A stretch of 24,077 bases of DNA from a virus, in IMG/VR virus record IMGVR_UViG_3300017769_000124, positions 1 to 24,077 of that record; one strand, 5' to 3'. This document shows, in pieces, positions 8,047 through 21,572 of the stretch. The notes beneath the pieces were generated by a model. That model was not told where the DNA came from. It ran no database searches and was given only the letters and a program-made list of their open reading frames with translations. Position 1 is the first letter of the stretch. The number at the start of each line of letters is the position of its first letter. The position numbers were made by a program, and so were the translations under genes.

Positions 8047-8075
8047 ATTATAGGACCAGAAGGGTCAGGTGTCAA
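8047..8075 (-). promoter_or_regulatory. Perfect-consensus sigma70-type promoter (TTGACA-N17-TATAAT)
   Basis: On the minus strand TTGACA (8070-8075) and TATAAT (8047-8052) are separated by exactly 17 nt (8053-8069). Both hexamers match the bacterial vegetative consensus without a mismatch. The -35 box overlaps the TGA stop of the 215 aa structural gene. Transcription should begin near 8040 and run into the 60 aa gene and the two tRNAs. Such promoters are typical of T4-like early genes read by unmodified host RNA polymerase, and are unexpected inside a late structural operon. Confidence 0.8.
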
Positions 8076-8719
8076 CCTCTTGCATCATAGTCATACCCAG
8101 AGATAGAGAACTGTCTTGATCCACCTGGATATTCTGCTGGAGTTTCTCCCTGATATTCAACAATTAATGGTTCTCCATCAATCCTAGAAGCATGAACCGT
8201 ATAATAACAATCAATCGCTGATGCATTTCCAGATTTAATGTAAATCGTTTTCCCCCATTCAATTTTATCCACAATCAGATCTTGAGATGATCCAATCTGA
8301 GTAAGAGAAACTGTAATTGTATTTGGATCAATCAATCCATGCCAATAATCAGGTAATATAATTCTATTATCACCTCCTTCCAAGCGTCCACGAACATAAA
8401 TTCCTGCTTCTGGACCTTCTAAACAAATGTGACGAAGACGCTGACCTTTTTTGTTAGGGTGCTTGATGTCAAAACCTTTCCAAGCTTGCTGATTGATTGT
8501 CCCTTGAAAAGTTGTTGCGGTACAAGTTTGATTCACCTGCAGGTTATCAATCTGTGCATTACCATGAACTAATCTACCACATGCATCACCGGGGTAACTA
8601 GTATCACCTGTTGTTGAGTATGAAATAAATTTCAGATCAGTTCTTTTTGTGCCCGTAGTAGATCCACCACAATCTTTAGTATCTGCAAGTGTACTTGGTG
8701 GTACAAATTCTTCTGCCAT
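8072..8719 (-). CDS. Structural protein with HP...LRH...EGP fibre-tip-like domain (215 aa)
   Basis: The start overlaps the previous stop by 1 nt (TAATG at 8719). Residues about 82-212 form a domain with the signature FDIKHPNKKGQRLRH, EGPEAGIYVRGRL, ILPDYWHGLIDPNTITVSLT and QIG. The same layout occurs in the preceding 264 aa protein. It also matches a domain I know from many bacterial and phage proteins, in which HP is followed by LxH, E(S/G)PE, a VxLPDYF/YW segment and QLTxIG. The N-terminal 80 residues are divergent, polar and cysteine-containing, probably the attachment part. It is likely a short fibre, baseplate-peripheral or tip protein. There are no catalytic motifs. It is the last gene of the late run before the early-type cassette, and its stop codon lies within the -35 box of that promoter. 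Confidence 0.8.
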   Translation of the reverse strand: MAEEFVPPSTLADTKDCGGSTTGTKRTDLKFISYSTTGDTSYPGDACGRLVHGNAQIDNLQVNQTCTATTFQGTINQQAWKGFDIKHPNKKGQRLRHICLEGPEAGIYVRGRLEGGDNRIILPDYWHGLIDPNTITVSLTQIGSSQDLIVDKIEWGKTIYIKSGNASAIDCYYTVHASRIDGEPLIVEYQGETPAEYPGGSRQFSISGYDYDARG

Positions 8720-9513
8720 TACTTAGTCTCCTTGGTGTCATAGTGGTATCCCGAGATAGAATACTCCTCATTATTTCCTGGGTAATCCGCAGGTGATTCT
8801 CCCTCATATTCAGGGATAAGTCTCTCACCATCTGCACGAGTAGCAAATACATGAAAGAAGCAATTGATAGGTAGTCCACCATTTGCTTGTAGGTGAATAA
8901 CATTCTCACCAATTCTTTTTACAATCACATTTTGATGTGCACCAATAGGTGTCAAGTTAACTGTAATTGTGGTTGGATCAACAAGTTCTTCCCAATACTT
9001 AGGTAGATAGATCTTGTCTTTGTTTGAAATCCTACCTCTAAAGTATACATCATTTGATGGACCTTCGGGGCAGGTATGACGTAATCTCCATCCCTCTTTT
9101 GTCGGGTGAGGAATATCAAAGTTCTTTTTAGCAGACAGAATATGTGCACCACAGCGTGATTTTACTTCACCCTGAGCGGTGATGTTTCCTCTTGCTAAAA
9201 TATCAGATGAAACAAAAAGGTTTGCTTTGATTGCCGTGTTTCCTTTCACATACAATGACAAATTACTTGCAGTAGATCCACAAATTGATCCTGTTAAGGT
9301 ACTAGATGGTCCAGCGTCTACTCTAGGACCAATCATTACTGTGGCAGGTGGTGGAAATGGGAATCCAGTGCTGCCCACATTCAATGGACCCTGAATATAA
9401 GAGGATCCAATGATTTTTTGCGGTCCAATACCCAGTGCTGTTGGTATAACATTCTCTGGGCAAACTAATAGTTGCCCATCATAGATATGTCCTTCATCAA
9501 ACTGAAATGCCAT
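8719..9513 (-). CDS. Structural protein with HP...LRH...EGP fibre-tip-like domain (264 aa), paralogue of its neighbour
   Basis: Start ATG at 9513 with AGGAG 5 nt upstream, 7 nt after the stop of the 181 aa spike gene. The N-terminal half (1-125) is Gly/Ser/Val-rich beta-structure with a proline cluster (FPFPPP) and fibre-like repeats (LYVKGNTAIKANLFV, DILARGNITAQGEV). These resemble the VKGN...TA shaft repeats of phage fibres. The C-terminal domain (about 130-258) carries FDIPHPTKEGWRLRH, CPEGPSNDVYFRGR, YLPKYWEELVDPTTITVNLT and PIG. It aligns along its whole length with residues 82-212 of the following 215 aa protein. The two genes therefore arose by duplication and diverged mainly in their N-termini. 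I infer a trimeric small fibre or baseplate appendage near the spike. No enzyme motif is seen. Confidence 0.8.
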   Translation of the reverse strand: MAFQFDEGHIYDGQLLVCPENVIPTALGIGPQKIIGSSYIQGPLNVGSTGFPFPPPATVMIGPRVDAGPSSTLTGSICGSTASNLSLYVKGNTAIKANLFVSSDILARGNITAQGEVKSRCGAHILSAKKNFDIPHPTKEGWRLRHTCPEGPSNDVYFRGRISNKDKIYLPKYWEELVDPTTITVNLTPIGAHQNVIVKRIGENVIHLQANGGLPINCFFHVFATRADGERLIPEYEGESPADYPGNNEEYSISGYHYDTKETK

Positions 9514-15183: not shown

Positions 15184-17469
15184 TTATGCTCCCTTATAAA
15201 GAATATCTTTCGGACTGCTAGTTGCTCCGGCAGAGGGCACTGGTAGGTAAGATACACTACCCTCTCCTTGATTATACATCTGTTGAGATCCATTACCTGG
15301 TTGAGACATCACTACTGTTTGTTGACTAAGAGCATCATACGGAGCATAATCGCGAATTGCTTTTAAGATACCTTCATAACTATTTGCTTCGTTGATTGCA
15401 AGCAACATCTGCTTAGCAGGTCCAGCACTATCTGGGTCAATAACTATCTCTCCTTTATGTAGGAGCGCATAGAGATCTTTTGGAACCACACCACCTCTCT
15501 TATATGCAATATGAACGTGGTCTGCATGTCCTCTGGGATCGTTAGATTCATGGACAAACTCAGCACGTTTAGGATTATTATTCTTTTTCTCCCACTCTTG
15601 GATAGCCGCAATGATCTTTGTCTGATCATCTACACCTGCTCCTATCTTTCTCTTAAACAGATTTGGACCATATCCTCCAATGTCGATTGCTCTTCCACCT
15701 TGAGATTCATAATGCAGAGAGTTGGCTCTGTGACCAGACTCTCTAGGCCAAGGTGGGTGCTCTGGGTGTTGGTGCACACCTGATCCAAAACCACCAACTC
15801 CTTTTGCATCTAGGAATCTACCAAGTTCTCCTGCAAGTTTAGATCCTTCACTTTGATTTCTAATATCTGCACCAGAACTACTTGTATCAGTGTTCGCAGT
15901 AATGGAACTAGTGGAAGAATCTCCAGATCTCATTGATGCGGACTGCACATTTCTGTATTGACTCAGTAATCGTTTTAACTTGCCTGCATATCTTGGGTCA
16001 GTTGCATATCCTTCTCTTCTTAGCAGTTCCGCTGCTTCATCAGCACTACCAGCACGGTTGATACCACTATATCCTCTATAATCTTTATACCATTGTGTCA
16101 CCAAATGATTGACAGCATCTTGTGGTGTGGCAAAGTTTTTAAATTTACCTGCAGTGTTGATTGTAACTCCACCATAAACTTCTTGTGTTGCTGAAGTTGT
16201 TCCTGCCTCACTTGCTGTTGCTTTAATACCAAAGAAGTTGTTTGGTGCAGACAGTGCTGTGCCCCAGTTCGATTCTAGCGCAAACTGTGCTGCCACAAGT
16301 TCTGGGTATTTTGCTCCTGCCTTCTTCGCCATTGCAATTATTGCTGCCCACTTCTCTTCTTTTGTCCCTTTGAGATTACCGGAAACTTTACTACCAGCAA
16401 CAGGAGTTACTGAACTACCAGATACTCCTGGTCTTTGATCTTGTGTTTCATCTCCCGCTATAGGTTTCTTTCCAGAGAAGAATGCATCATACAACAATGC
16501 ACCACCGTAGTCACCAGCAACTGATCCTAAAAATCCACCAATTGCTGTTCCTACAATAGGAACAACAGATCCAGCAATTGCACCGAGAGCACCAAAGATT
16601 GCAGATCCAACTGCTCTTAGTGCCGCTTTACCTATGGGTTCTTTGAAAACAAAGTAACTGATTAAGAAATTAATTAAAGGACCAATGATTGGAATCTTTT
16701 TGAAGATAGGAGATGCTAATTTGAGACCTTTGAGAACTACTCTCGCTGCTCCTTTACCAACAAGTTTTGATATCCCTTTTACTGCTGCCGCTGCTACTGG
16801 TCTTGCAACTTTTTTGATAAGTGCTTTCTGTGCGTTTGCAGCTGCCTCACCAAAACCAGCGAATGCCATCCCTGTGATAAGAGTGTAGTTGGCAACCTTT
16901 TTAAATGAAGCAGCGAAGTCCTCTAATTGCTTTACTCCTTCATCTCCAAATAAATCACCGACGTTTTTCTTAAGACCATCATACATGCCATATCCAAAGT
17001 CAAGGAAGGTGACAAGACCATCAAAAATTTTACCACCAAAATCAATAATAAAATCACCTGCTGCAGCAGCACCATCTAAGAAAGATCCAATCTTTGGATC
17101 ATTAGCAGAGTCAACCAGTCTGGTTACAAAAAATCCTAATATTATTTTTCCAATAAAGTTCTTAACCTTATCTAAAAAACTAACCCCAGGAGTTTTAGTT
17201 GACTTTTTCTTTGCTTCTTTTTGAGTTGGTTGTTTCTCTAAATTAGTTTCCTTTGCACCTCTCTGTTCTCTCTCTTTAAGTTTTGCTTTTACAGATTGAC
17301 TTTTTTTCTCTCTGTCTACTCTATCTTTGAACAGGGTATCAAGGGTTATAACTTTCTTTTTAGTATTTAAAAAACCACTAGCAAGAGGTGATGACATACC
17401 ACCCGTGGTTGGTTTAGAAACTTTTGCGAGGGAACCTCCCTTGGATACTGGTGGTAATAATTTTGCCAT
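15184..17469 (-). CDS. Tape-measure-like protein with GH73-like and M15-like cell wall hydrolase domains (761 aa)
   Basis: A basic N-terminus with many Lys/Glu (1-95) precedes FIGKIILGFFVTRLVD (105-120) and long hydrophobic, Gly/Ala-rich segments to about 330 (for example IPIIGPLINFLISYFVF). Residues about 372-505 match FlgJ-type glucosaminidase (GH73): AAQFALESNWG with likely catalytic E399, NNFFGIKA, YKDYRGYSG and YATDPRYAGKL. Residues about 560-656 match an M15/VanY-type zinc peptidase: SLHYESQGGRAIDIG (H586, D596) and HADHVHIAY (H648, H651, H653). Residues 659-677 carry the tape-measure style GGVVPKDLYALLHKGEIVID. Inference: a tail-interior protein that degrades peptidoglycan during DNA entry, replacing the lysozyme domain missing from gp5. 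It starts 1 nt after the stop of the 593 aa gene, so it is coupled to it. Confidence 0.75.
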   Translation of the reverse strand: MAKLLPPVSKGGSLAKVSKPTTGGMSSPLASGFLNTKKKVITLDTLFKDRVDREKKSQSVKAKLKEREQRGAKETNLEKQPTQKEAKKKSTKTPGVSFLDKVKNFIGKIILGFFVTRLVDSANDPKIGSFLDGAAAAGDFIIDFGGKIFDGLVTFLDFGYGMYDGLKKNVGDLFGDEGVKQLEDFAASFKKVANYTLITGMAFAGFGEAAANAQKALIKKVARPVAAAAVKGISKLVGKGAARVVLKGLKLASPIFKKIPIIGPLINFLISYFVFKEPIGKAALRAVGSAIFGALGAIAGSVVPIVGTAIGGFLGSVAGDYGGALLYDAFFSGKKPIAGDETQDQRPGVSGSSVTPVAGSKVSGNLKGTKEEKWAAIIAMAKKAGAKYPELVAAQFALESNWGTALSAPNNFFGIKATASEAGTTSATQEVYGGVTINTAGKFKNFATPQDAVNHLVTQWYKDYRGYSGINRAGSADEAAELLRREGYATDPRYAGKLKRLLSQYRNVQSASMRSGDSSTSSITANTDTSSSGADIRNQSEGSKLAGELGRFLDAKGVGGFGSGVHQHPEHPPWPRESGHRANSLHYESQGGRAIDIGGYGPNLFKRKIGAGVDDQTKIIAAIQEWEKKNNNPKRAEFVHESNDPRGHADHVHIAYKRGGVVPKDLYALLHKGEIVIDPDSAGPAKQMLLAINEANSYEGILKAIRDYAPYDALSQQTVVMSQPGNGSQQMYNQGEGSVSYLPVPSAGATSSPKDILYKGA

Positions 17470-17470
17470 A

Positions 17471-19252
17471 TTATCCTATACCCAGTGTCTGCATTTTATT
17501 ACCAGACCCACTAGTGGATGCACTGAAAGATGGTATTTGAGATTCAGTTGGTGCTACCTGTGCACTCTGTCCATTAGCACCACCAGACCCTAACGGTAAG
17601 AATTCAACCTGTGGTTTTGGTTTTGTTGGTGGTCCAATCGGTGTCCTTTGAATTTGATCCTGAGATACACTCATGTTTTTCTTAGATCTCTGCTGACCAG
17701 GACTCATCATAACTCTATTATCTTGGTAGAGATCACCCTCATCAAACAAGATATTTTGAGGATCAATTTCTTTTTTCTTAAAGGCACCAAACATACCACC
17801 AAGAACAGCACCTATACTTCCAACTTTTGATTGTTCAGTTAAAGCATTGATGCCACCACCACCGCCACTCAGTCCAAGAATAGGATCCATTGCTAAAATT
17901 GGACCCATCATATTTGGCATCTTCGGTGCTTTAACCGTGTGTGTTAATTTTTTCTGTTCTTTAGATCTTTTTTGAAGTTGTGACTTATTGACATTATTCA
18001 CTGTACTATAAGGCATCATTCCACCACCCTTAGCATAGGTTGTGAAGGACTGATTAATTACAGGTACGTTTGTTCCTCCACCCACAGAGTTCATGGACTC
18101 AAGTGCTGATGTTCCATATCTTTGAACTGCACCTCTGCTCATCACAAACTCACCTGGAGACAGCATCGCAGGAACAGTGTCACTGTTTGGACCGCCACCA
18201 CCAACGAATCCACCTTTATTGAAACCGCCACCCATGCCACGTTGAAGAATTGATTCTTGCATCAACTGCGATGCACCAGGCGTCTGACCTTCCTCTCTTG
18301 TCTCCGTTGGTGTTACAACAGAATCATCGTCTTCGGCATCTAACTCTGATCTTCTCTTTTCATTCTGCTGTGAAGCCACGAATGCGCCACCAGCAGCAAG
18401 TGCACCTAGACCCAGTGCTGCACCCAAAGGAGTCATAAAGAACTTTGCAAATCTTGGAATTAATTTAACAAGTCCTACTGTTAGTTTGACAACAGTTCCT
18501 ATCAGACCTCTGACAATGCCACCAAAACTAGTCCCAAATAAAAGAACCGCAGCAGTAAGAGCAGGCCAGAAGTCCTCAATAAATCTGAATATTGTTTTTA
18601 TTTTACCTTGATTTTCATCATCAGCAAACCAATCAATGATCTTCATTAAGACATTGCCGAGTATTATTTTTTTAATAAAATCAAATACCCTATCAAAAAT
18701 ACCCTTAACTGGTTTTAATATCTTCTCTGCAGATTTCTTTAATACAGTAAATCCTTTTTCTAATTTATTCTCTGCCTTACTTCTCTTATCTCTTTCTGCG
18801 GATACTCTTTCTTTCTCTAATGATTTCCCTTCTAACTTTTGCTCCTCTCTAATCGTAGCGATGAGGTCATCAAGTTTCTGGTTAATCTCCTCTACAATTT
18901 TCTCAGTGCTTTCACCCACAGGTGATTGTATAAACTTCTGCATTGCACCACCAGGTGCCTTTACAATAGCACCCGAACGAGGTAATCCTCTACTACCAGT
19001 TGGTGCTACCGTTGCAGATTTTTTCTTTGCTAATACTTTATTGATGAACTTCTCAAACCCTATCTTATCGTTTCTCTTTTTAAATCCTTCCTTTCTTTCT
19101 TCTGGTGTAAGTTGCTCTCCACCAATGGATCCTTGTGCAGCAAGTTCCTCTTTATATTTCTCGTATCTATCCTCACCAAGAAATTTTGCAGGGACGATCT
19201 TTCCACCCTTACCTTCTTCTCTTATGGATTTAAGGAGATCATCAAGATCCAT
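17471..19252 (-). CDS. Tail tape-measure-like protein (593 aa, gp29 counterpart)
   Basis: The ATG overlaps the gp51-like 3' end by 11 nt. A charged N-terminus leads to a probable coiled coil at about 117-182 (KIVEEINQKLDDLIATI, KERVSAERDKRSKAENKLEK). Then come RVFDFIKKIILGNVLMKIID (188-207) and hydrophobic helices at about 228-293 (ALTAAVLLFGTSFGGIVRGL, PLGAALGLGALAAGGAFVA). Residues 346-379 carry the motif GGFVGGGGPNSDTVPAMLSP followed by GEFVMSRGAVQRYG, a hallmark of phage tape-measure proteins. The length is almost that of T4 gp29 (590 aa). It should act as ruler inside the tail tube and as hub component. The C-terminal 200 residues are polar and disordered-looking. The FIxKIILG segment and the GG-V...GE-V motif recur in the following 761 aa protein, suggesting ancient duplication. 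Confidence 0.75.
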   Translation of the reverse strand: MDLDDLLKSIREEGKGGKIVPAKFLGEDRYEKYKEELAAQGSIGGEQLTPEERKEGFKKRNDKIGFEKFINKVLAKKKSATVAPTGSRGLPRSGAIVKAPGGAMQKFIQSPVGESTEKIVEEINQKLDDLIATIREEQKLEGKSLEKERVSAERDKRSKAENKLEKGFTVLKKSAEKILKPVKGIFDRVFDFIKKIILGNVLMKIIDWFADDENQGKIKTIFRFIEDFWPALTAAVLLFGTSFGGIVRGLIGTVVKLTVGLVKLIPRFAKFFMTPLGAALGLGALAAGGAFVASQQNEKRRSELDAEDDDSVVTPTETREEGQTPGASQLMQESILQRGMGGGFNKGGFVGGGGPNSDTVPAMLSPGEFVMSRGAVQRYGTSALESMNSVGGGTNVPVINQSFTTYAKGGGMMPYSTVNNVNKSQLQKRSKEQKKLTHTVKAPKMPNMMGPILAMDPILGLSGGGGGINALTEQSKVGSIGAVLGGMFGAFKKKEIDPQNILFDEGDLYQDNRVMMSPGQQRSKKNMSVSQDQIQRTPIGPPTKPKPQVEFLPLGSGGANGQSAQVAPTESQIPSFSASTSGSGNKMQTLGIG

Positions 19253-19412
19253 GTGACTGCTGCTGTTTTAGTTTTTCTTCTTCAAGGTGGTATTGCAATA
19301 ACCCGACATAGATATCTCGTTCCCAAGGCATCATATTTTCAATCTCGGTCAAAGAGTATTTATGATACTGCATCAAGGCAAAGTTGAGTTTGAAATAACT
19401 AATGAGATCCAT
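19242..19412 (-). CDS. gp51: gp51-like baseplate hub assembly protein (56 aa; possibly expressed as a gp26 frameshift extension)
   Basis: Frame stops at TGA 19242-19244; ATG at 19412 gives MDLISYFKLNFALMQYHKYS... and 56 residues. An in-frame ATG at 19421 gives 59 residues (MIHMDL...), 2 nt after the gp26 stop. Neither has a Shine-Dalgarno. I prefer 19412 because cyanophage gp51 proteins, as I remember them, start MDLI. The sequence contains YHKYSLTEIENMMPWERDIY and ends in a Glu/Lys/Gln-rich helix, the style of the small second component of tail assembly chaperones. T4 gp51 (249 aa) is a non-structural helper of hub assembly. This protein is far shorter, so the name rests on position after gp26 and pattern. 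The whole frame is in the -1 register relative to gp26, directly behind a slippery heptamer, so it may be made as a fusion. Confidence 0.65.
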   Translation of the reverse strand: MDLISYFKLNFALMQYHKYSLTEIENMMPWERDIYVGLLQYHLEEEKLKQQQSHGS

Positions 19413-19436
19413 GTGGATCATTGCTACGCGAAAAAA
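19401..19436 (-). promoter_or_regulatory. Candidate -1 programmed frameshift site (T TTT TTC, spacer, stem-loop)
   Basis: At the end of gp26 the zero-frame codons read GCG TCT TTT TTC GCG TAG. The heptamer T TTT TTC (19430-19436) fits X XXY YYZ. After a 7-nt spacer (19423-19429) lies a 22-nt imperfect stem-loop (19401-19422): arm AATGATCC, loop ACAT, arm GGATCTCATT with a 2-nt bulge. A -1 slip would bypass the TAG and continue through R-V-A-M into the gp51-like frame. That gives a product of about 300 residues. Confidence 0.65.
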
Positions 19437-20143
19437 GACGCTAATCCCTCTAAGACTACCTCACTTTCGACCTTAGTATTTGGATTCGTTACCTTGACTG
19501 TATGAGAAAGTTTTGGCATAGTTTCAAAGAACTTTTCTATGTCTTTGAACTGTGAGGAGTTCATTGATTCAAGGAACTCATTTACCTCTTTCTTAGTGCA
19601 ATCTGCAGCGACCCAAACATCATCCTCAGTATAGATTTTATCAATACAAGATGCGATCAATTCAAATGATTGATCCATGGCACTGTTATCAGCAAAATCA
19701 AAATTGTTTTTAATGAACTGATCAAGTGATGGATACTTCATTTCCATCATAATTTTTTTATCAATCTTAATCTGATTGATGTGCTCTTTACTTTTAATTA
19801 CTTCAATATCATCAAGGTTAATCTTCACAGAGACTTGTGTCTCCTCATCATCAGGGCACATAATGTTTACATCAATTTCTTCACCAACTGACTTACCCCT
19901 GATATTAAGGAACAAGTATTCAATATCAAAAGTAGGAAGTTGCTCTACCTTGACACCTCTTGTTGTGATACAGTTTTTGATGACTGTTTTAATTGCATTA
20001 GTGATTTGTTTTGTATCCTCACTTTCTAATGCAATCACCAAAACCTTTTCTTCTTTTACAAGGAAGGGTCTATAAGTAATCGTTTGTCCTGTGGATGGCA
20101 ACTCAAGTTCATATGTGGGAGTCGCAATTTTTGGTAAAGGCAT
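19424..20143 (-). CDS. gp26: Baseplate hub protein gp26-like (239 aa)
   Basis: 239 residues, slightly longer than T4 gp26 (208 aa). The start MPLPKIATPTYELELPSTG leads to TITYRPFLVKEEKVLVIALE, a pattern I associate with the T4 gp26 family of baseplate hub proteins. It continues with ITNAIKTVIKNC, FDIEYLFLNIRGKSVGEEID and a helical C-terminal half. The ending, VESEVVLEGLASFFA, is read through a run of six T. CPDDEE is a short acidic turn rather than a metal site. The family acts in hub assembly. Related proteins stand immediately before tape-measure genes in other myophages, where the position belongs to tail assembly chaperones. A CATAAATA late-type box lies 28 nt upstream and no strong Shine-Dalgarno is seen. 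The next, gp51-like gene follows in the -1 frame. Confidence 0.82.
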   Translation of the reverse strand: MPLPKIATPTYELELPSTGQTITYRPFLVKEEKVLVIALESEDTKQITNAIKTVIKNCITTRGVKVEQLPTFDIEYLFLNIRGKSVGEEIDVNIMCPDDEETQVSVKINLDDIEVIKSKEHINQIKIDKKIMMEMKYPSLDQFIKNNFDFADNSAMDQSFELIASCIDKIYTEDDVWVAADCTKKEVNEFLESMNSSQFKDIEKFFETMPKLSHTVKVTNPNTKVESEVVLEGLASFFA

Positions 20144-20184: not shown

Positions 20185-21087
20185 TCAGAAAACTCTTGAT
20201 TCCGATGCGAATTGCCCACCAAGGGAAATAGGTGCTGCTGTGACACCTCTTGCCCGTGCTTCGGCACTAATAGCATTACTAGTTGCATTAAATTGTGCTG
20301 CTGCTGCATTAATAGCTTGACCGTTACCAGTCAGTATCTGTGGAGGGAAAGATGTATCTGTTGCTCTGCTAGAATCACTTTGACCACCAGGAATGGACCC
20401 AGCAGTCACAGGTGGATTAGAACCATCAACGACATATCTGACGTATGACATTGAGACAATGCACTTCAAAAGATTAGACTGATCATATGATACAGGCATT
20501 GATGCTATAGAAAGAGGAAATGCTCTGATAAAAGTATATGTTAGTTGTCCTGCTGATTTTGGTTGTTGTCCAAGAAAACTTAGAAAATTATTACCAGATG
20601 TGCCGAAAGAACTTTTTTCAAACTTAGTAATTCTCATTCCACTATCAGACATGTACGTATCTGGGTATTCAAATCTATAGAAATAATCTTTATCTAGTGC
20701 TCCTGGTCTTCCTTCTACCCTCGCCGTGCTTTGTTGAGTAATATAATTTATCCACGTCTCAAAGAATCTAATTGGCATATAGTTTTCTGCATTGACATAG
20801 AATGTCAAGTCAATTCTATCATCATATATCTTCCTATGTGCGTGCTTCTCTGTCACACCAGTGCGATCATTATTTAATTCTAATGTTGCAAGTCTAGATC
20901 CAGGCAACACAGTTTCGCAACACATCAAATTTAATCTGTCCTGGTCGATTGGCACACCAGCACTATTGAAGTAAGCAAGGTTCAGAGGACCAGTGCTCGG
21001 CAAAGGAATCTGTACATAGTATAGAGAGGTGAGTGCAGGACTCAACAACTTGCTTTTAATTTGTCTAATACCTAGTGGTTGAGGCAT
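20185..21087 (-). CDS. gp54: Baseplate tail-tube initiator, gp54-like (300 aa)
   Basis: 300 residues (T4 gp54: 320). It has the tail-tube-like layout shared by gp19, gp48 and gp54: LYYVQIPLPS, then ETVLPGSRLATLELNNDRTG, IYDDRIDLTFYVNAENYMPI followed by RFFETWINYIT, DYFYRFEYPDTYM, and a late strand pair LTYTFIRAFPLSIASMPVSY and LLKCIVSMSYVRYVV. The C-terminal 80 residues are low-complexity Gly/Ser/Ala-rich, which is not part of the fold and may be disordered. In T4, gp54 and gp48 sit on the hub and start tube polymerisation; here gp48 is on the opposite strand across the divergent promoter. A gp19-like tube paralogue is the main alternative. The start is 41 nt from the gp4 start. No clear Shine-Dalgarno. 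Confidence 0.65.
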   Translation of the reverse strand: MPQPLGIRQIKSKLLSPALTSLYYVQIPLPSTGPLNLAYFNSAGVPIDQDRLNLMCCETVLPGSRLATLELNNDRTGVTEKHAHRKIYDDRIDLTFYVNAENYMPIRFFETWINYITQQSTARVEGRPGALDKDYFYRFEYPDTYMSDSGMRITKFEKSSFGTSGNNFLSFLGQQPKSAGQLTYTFIRAFPLSIASMPVSYDQSNLLKCIVSMSYVRYVVDGSNPPVTAGSIPGGQSDSSRATDTSFPPQILTGNGQAINAAAAQFNATSNAISAEARARGVTAAPISLGGQFASESRVF

Positions 21088-21128: not shown

Positions 21129-21572
21129 ATGGGAGAAAGTATCAAAAGCAGATATAAACCATCATATCCTGAGAAGTATCAAGGCAATCCAAACAATATC
21201 ATTTGTAGAAGTAGTTGGGAGAGACGTTTTTGTAAATGGTGTGACTTAAATAAAAGTATTGTATCATGGGCATCTGAAGAGTTCAGTATCCCCTATGTGT
21301 CACCAGTTGATAATCGTGTCCATAGATATTACCCAGATTACTTGATTAAAGTCAAGGAGTCAACTGGTAAGGTTAAGACATATGTAATTGAGGTCAAACC
21401 AAAGAAGCAAACTGCACCACCAAAGAAACGAAAGAGGCAAACCAAATCATACATCTATGAGTGTCAGATGTATGCAGTCAATCAAGCAAAGTGGAAAGCA
21501 GCAAAAGAGTTCTGTGCTGATAATCGTGTTGAGTTCAAAATCATAACCGAGAATGAACTAGGAATTAAATGA
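21129..21572 (+). CDS. gp4: Head completion protein gp4, nuclease-like (147 aa)
   Basis: 147 residues, against about 150 for T4 gp4. The motifs are those of a PD-(D/E)XK endonuclease fold: CRSSWERRFCKWCD (E31), ASEEFSIPYVSP (E50/E51), VHRYYPDYLIKV (D70) and VIEVKPKK (E88, K90), followed by a basic stretch (PPKKRKRQTKSY) that could contact DNA. T4 gp4 is needed to finish the DNA-filled head before tail joining; the family is similar to TnsA/VSR-type nucleases. The start has no strong Shine-Dalgarno (AAGAGAA close to the ATG). The TGA stop overlaps the next ATG by 4 nt. It follows the perfect late promoter. Confidence 0.88.
   Translation: MGESIKSRYKPSYPEKYQGNPNNIICRSSWERRFCKWCDLNKSIVSWASEEFSIPYVSPVDNRVHRYYPDYLIKVKESTGKVKTYVIEVKPKKQTAPPKKRKRQTKSYIYECQMYAVNQAKWKAAKEFCADNRVEFKIITENELGIK

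Follow-up and report, generated by a model that had tools for sequence, protein, structure and literature searches.

A probable −1 frameshift joining gp26 and gp51 as one tail assembly chaperone gene in T4-like phages

The gp26/gp51 locus

The window analysed here is a whole viral record of 24,077 nucleotides, which is a genome fragment, and the copy number of PF12322 genes was taken from other genomes. A gene for the tail tube protein lies directly upstream of gp26, which is followed by a gene of 593 codons, all on the minus strand. The features are as follows.

20185–21087, minus strand: tail tube protein gene (PF23849, E=1.6e-10; phrog_45, tail tube, E=3e-27)
19424–20143, minus strand: gp26, the putative short form, TAC-N-like, 239 aa (PF12322, E=1.9e-77; phrog_150, E=5.9e-81)
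19446–19449, minus strand: Shine-Dalgarno (SD)-like AGGG inside GAG GGA, 9 nt 5' of the heptamer
19430–19436, minus strand: candidate slippery heptamer T TTT TTC (T TTT TTY in 245 of 248 loci)
19406–19419, minus strand: core of the putative downstream hairpin, GATCC-ACAT-GGATC, 10 nt 3' of the heptamer, with covariation
19242–19436, minus strand: −1 frame extension, stop codon TGA at 19244–19242 (phrog_634, E=3.9e-27)
17471–19252, minus strand: 593 aa gene, weakly tape-measure-like (phrog_35029, E=5e-103)

The 593 aa gene begins inside the −1 frame, the two sharing 11 nt. Its matches to tape measure families are weak (best E about 1e-5), phrog_35029 is a family whose function is not known, and comparison with T4 gp29 gave no convincing match. 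The −1 segment corresponds to phrog_634, 'baseplate hub assembly catalyst', and is annotated as gp51 in relatives; it also matches positions 241–279 of phrog_150, which therefore contains natural fusions.

Three other regions of the window deserve mention. The 593 aa gene is followed by a 761 aa gene (15184–17469, minus strand) with a glucosaminidase domain, possibly a tail-associated peptidoglycan hydrolase. Adjacent tandem paralogues at 8072–8719 and 8719–9513 (both minus strand) share 42% identity over 223 columns, and neither has a match in Pfam. At 21129–21572 (plus strand) there is a TnsA-like endonuclease N-terminal domain; the gene containing it is labelled head completion protein in several cyanophage records.

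The 3' end of gp26 reads TTA GAG GGA TTA GCG TCT TTT TTC GCG TAG, and the heptamer sits in the zero-frame register X XXY YYZ. The ending TCT TTT TTC GCG TAG, with T TTT TTC at 19436–19430, is read directly as the initial annotation gave it, and the −1 frame is likewise open through the gp51-like reading frame, its only stop being the TGA at 19244–19242. After a −1 slip the sequence would continue as RVAMIHMDLISYFKLNFALMQYHKYSLTEIENMMPWERDIYVGLLQYHLEEEKLKQQQSHGS in a frame of 62 codons, and where a 239 aa protein and a fusion of roughly 300 aa had been proposed, translation gives predicted products of exactly 239 and 300 aa. T TTT TTC is itself common by chance in this DNA, with 14 occurrences in the window (three on the gp26 strand and 11 on the other), and its significance comes from conservation.

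Conservation of the heptamer and of the elements around it

Junctions were compared at 248 loci with a readable gp26 end, from close and distant relatives in IMG/VR and INPHARED, the scans seeded with the gp26 of Moby and of nt-1 yielding only two loci each. The initial annotation had suggested such a comparison among cyanophages, together with a search for in-frame stops between the heptamer and gp51. All but three of the 248 loci preserve the heptamer, the −1 register and the open extension, with T TTT TTC in 229 and T TTT TTT in 16 (phiN3 and Melnitz-2 have the latter). The homologous −1 extension is open in all 245 and spans 56–73 aa wherever the stop lies within the contig; in four loci the contig ends first. 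The position of the zero-frame stop varies from two to ten codons past the first Phe codon, so that the stop shifts but the heptamer stays. The three exceptions are L097, L251 and D510. The first two look like local indels upstream, and D510, a distant Vibrio phage with A CTT TTC at the heptamer site, is a genuine variant.

Removal of sequences with more than 85% identity left a non-redundant set of 107 heptamer loci. The codon preceding the TTT of the heptamer ends in T in every one of these, even though the amino acid varies (AGT, TCT, GAT, AAT, GCT, ACT, GGT and CAT are all seen); the first Phe codon is TTT in 107/107, and the second is TTC in 102 and TTT in five. The gp26 protein alignment shows the Phe-Phe pair unchanged throughout, as would be expected if the pair and the open frame reflected a constraint at the protein level only, or if a recent indel had split one gene in two. 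However, codon choice is fixed as well, other Phe-Phe pairs in the same loci having the T TTT TTY context in only 47 of 522 cases (9%; p=6e-84, uncorrected for kinship), and the pattern spans the Kyanoviridae (including a Methylophilales phage) as well as phages of Sinorhizobium, Stenotrophomonas, Delftia, Vibrio and Aeromonas. We regard both of these explanations as next to impossible.

Three Vibrio phages that are Ackermannviridae-like, D510 (L089), SD25 (L258) and GR28A (L260), have the homologous −1 frame without T TTT TTY, and in each the stop and start codons overlap as TAATG. These phages may use a slip of one tRNA or may have switched to reinitiation, and the extension is thus perhaps made another way in some lineages.

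An SD-like AGGG, which the initial annotation did not include, is situated 8–9 nt 5' of the heptamer across the loci (9 nt in the window, at 19449–19446). It is present in 92 of the 107 non-redundant loci, compared with 43 ± 5 predicted by synonymous reshuffling, and Glu-Gly codon pairs contain AGGG in 89/94 cases at this site versus 127/361 elsewhere (p=6e-28, uncorrected for kinship). Of 22 GAA codons for the Glu, 17 have GGG after them, whereas any Gly codon can follow GAG; either choice thus preserves AGGG. Mean energies of pairing with the anti-SD sequence are −6.9 kcal/mol at the SD-like site, −3.2 kcal/mol at gp26 starts and −0.3 kcal/mol at gp51 ATGs. From the codon statistics, the element looks to be under selection. 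SD stimulators of −1 sites, of which that of dnaX is an example, are spaced 9–14 nt away (PMC5009743), and the spacing of 8–9 nt here is close to this range.

SD sequences near gene ends can also serve translational coupling (PMC5009743), and gp51 could be a separate small protein with its own initiation through termination-reinitiation, the T run being incidental. Many loci, among them the window (19421–19419), have an ATG 8 nt 3' of the heptamer, and stop and start codons overlap as TRATG in Moby, PhiW-14, nt-1, PVA23, D510, SD25 and GR28A. However, among the 245 −1 frames 28 lack any ATG within the first 20 codons and in a further 61 the earliest ATG is at codon 15 or later, and SD pairing 5' of the gp51 ATGs is nearly absent, reaching −4 kcal/mol or lower in 5%; the initial annotation's remark that gp51's own start lacks an SD agrees with the mean energy at these ATGs. 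The AGGG of the window sits 24 nt 5' of its gp51 ATG. Because the ATG is often missing and SD pairing is nearly absent, separate initiation of gp51 is unlikely, and coupling would leave both the synonymous invariance of the heptamer and the in-frame fusion in T4 gp51 (see below) unexplained. Taken as a whole, this explanation appears very unlikely to us.

The evidence for a downstream hairpin comes from covariation. Folding by energy gave no support, the 111-nt junction stretch of the window being no more stable than its shuffles (z = +1.08), and the hairpin was therefore judged by covariation, using 53 non-redundant sequences of the window's clade. In this clade a 5-bp stem closes over a CAYATG centre, 10 nt 3' of the heptamer, with 28 double-change cells compared with 9.8 ± 5.4 in shuffles (relatedness not removed) and pairing of 87.9% versus at most 53% when the stem is slid. 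The compensatory changes include ATC...GAT, GTC...GAC and GTT...AAC. RNAalifold gives the clade a consensus of only −0.15 kcal/mol, although three of four pairs covary. In a second clade the stem is of 11 bp and begins 5 nt 3' of the heptamer (about −14.8 kcal/mol); the most distant phages have no evident stem in common. The 22-nt stem-loop at 19422–19401 in the initial annotation is one possible fold, and covariation backs only its core, GATCC/GGATC at 19419–19406. The downstream hairpin looks to be under selection, for which covariation, here phylogenetically uncorrected, is good evidence.

Polymerase slippage, too, can be aided by an RNA hairpin, and tracts of six or seven T are present (seven in 16 of the 245 loci), such that an extra T in some mRNAs could join the extension by transcriptional rather than ribosomal slippage. 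The tract is usually of six T, though, whereas bacterial transcriptional slippage has been described, in a review, on runs of nine A or T, and the locking of the register to the zero-frame X XXY YYZ, together with an SD-like element that appears to be selected, fits ribosomes and not polymerase. We consider slippage by polymerase to be extremely unlikely.

Equivalence with T4 gp26 and gp51 and the proposed products

T4 gp26 and gp51 are both members of PF12322. A profile HMM of the fusion protein aligns with T4 gp26 at positions 11–238 and with T4 gp51 at positions 24–284, and a profile of the extension by itself matches T4 gp51 (E=6e-8) and not T4 gp26, at whose end there is no heptamer. T4 gp51 is the extension fused in frame to a gp26 paralogue, and this in-frame arrangement supports the fusion as a functional product. 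By these alignments, T4 gp51 is the equivalent of the long fusion and T4 gp26 that of the short form. The number of PF12322 genes follows the same division: ten complete genomes that carry the heptamer have a single copy apiece (SynMITS9220M01, DSL-LC03, phiN3, Moby, PhiW-14, nt-1, PVA23, CC2, Melnitz-2 and P-SSM2), and so do D510, SD25 and GR28A, which lack a canonical heptamer, and there are two PF12322 gene loci in T4, 44RR, phiKp_12 and ZZ1. T4-type phages thus appear to use two genes for the short and long forms, and the others one gene and a slip. In Acinetobacter phage ZZ1 (L256, 2501–3255), which also has gp26, gp51 is read in two frames as two PF12322 pieces, reflecting either a sequencing error or another frameshift.

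The AlphaFold2 model of gp26 has a pLDDT of 87, and in a Foldseek search of the PDB the chains of the HK97 tail assembly chaperone 2OB9 had the highest probabilities, 0.51 and 0.54, with non-significant E values of 1.7–2.3; a sequence search of the PDB with gp26 gave no match. For the extension, the predicted structure is helical (pLDDT 86). The two T4 proteins appear in PMC3004832 as chaperones of hub assembly, and by homology to them gp26 and gp51 here would be needed in tail assembly and absent from the virion. The two hub chaperones of T4 would then make sense as a single kind of tail assembly chaperone in a short and a long form.

The reading we favor, and in which we have high confidence given the comparative data, is that gp26 and the so-called gp51 are one frameshifted gene encoding a tail assembly chaperone pair. 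The sequence signal, its conservation and its covariation are observed directly, whereas slippage itself, how efficient it is and the role of the products as chaperones are inferences. Most ribosomes would stop at the TAG and yield the 239 aa short form, and a minority, held by the SD-like AGGG behind and the hairpin in front, would shift one nucleotide backwards, two Phe-tRNAs occupying U UUU UUC, and proceed to make the 300 aa long form, whose C-terminal extension is predicted to be helical. If the products act as lambda gpG/gpGT do, the tape measure protein would be coated by many copies of the short form and the tail tube subunit recruited by a few of the long form, and both chaperones would leave afterwards. 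This would also correct annotation, in that the feature tables read for cyanophage-type genomes list gp26 and gp51 as separate hub genes, or omit gp51, and contain no joined gp26/gp51 coding sequence.

Relation to known frameshifting systems

The G/GT frameshift of phage lambda is a textbook device, and the proposal of the initial annotation that gp26/gp51 is the same device is well supported, as a mode of operation, by the conservation of the junction and by the homology to T4. Vladimirov et al. (2022) reportedly assigned the tail assembly chaperones of T4-like phages; as far as that work is represented in the papers that cite it, the suggestion that such a frameshift was not described for T4-like gp26/gp51 is not supported. 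It is credited with poly-T slippery sequences in T4-like TAC-N genes (PMC12846349) and with phages having a short gene and a fused long gene (PMC10885494), and on the strength of these citing papers and the homology described above, the family concerned is the same (T4 gp26/gp51). The gp26/gp51 frameshift is therefore of a known kind, and its link to T4-like phages dates, by these citing accounts, from 2022. In the literature consulted, with Vladimirov et al. (2022) represented through citing papers, neither the cyanophage locus nor the covarying hairpins nor the SD-like element was found described, and the SD-like and hairpin parts may be as yet undescribed.

We see it as an evenly balanced proposition that the PF12322 chaperone of T4-like phages is a single gene with a dnaX-like three-part −1 signal and clade-specific hairpins, set alongside the two copies of Tequatrovirus-type phages and the Vibrio Ackermannviridae-like phages that lack a canonical heptamer. 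If true, the three arrangements would form a series of naturally occurring ways to fix a single protein ratio.

In phage P2, the E/E' chaperone gene of a myovirus likewise has a −1 frameshift, at a slippery site rich in T. The lambda-type device is widely conserved except in T4 (PMC5009743). As predicted for gp26/gp51, the −1 frameshift in lambda occurs towards the end of the first of two genes, and the long form consists of the short form with a C-terminal domain added (PMC5009743), although the heptamer and the proteins differ. The lambda site lies between the tail tube and tape measure genes; here the tail tube gene upstream is clear and the downstream gene is weakly tape-measure-like. The Vandenendeviridae TAC locus (PMC12846349) also has a −1 frameshift, a T-rich slippery site and the context of a myovirus chaperone gene, but has an invariant GTTTTT where T TTT TTC is found here in the PF12322 family. 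The arrangement of the signal resembles that of E. coli dnaX, which likewise has an upstream SD-like element, an X XXY YYZ heptamer and a downstream stem-loop. However, the dnaX heptamer is A AAA AAG, about 50% of ribosomes shift, and translation ends soon after, whereas the predicted shift in gp26 would lengthen the product.
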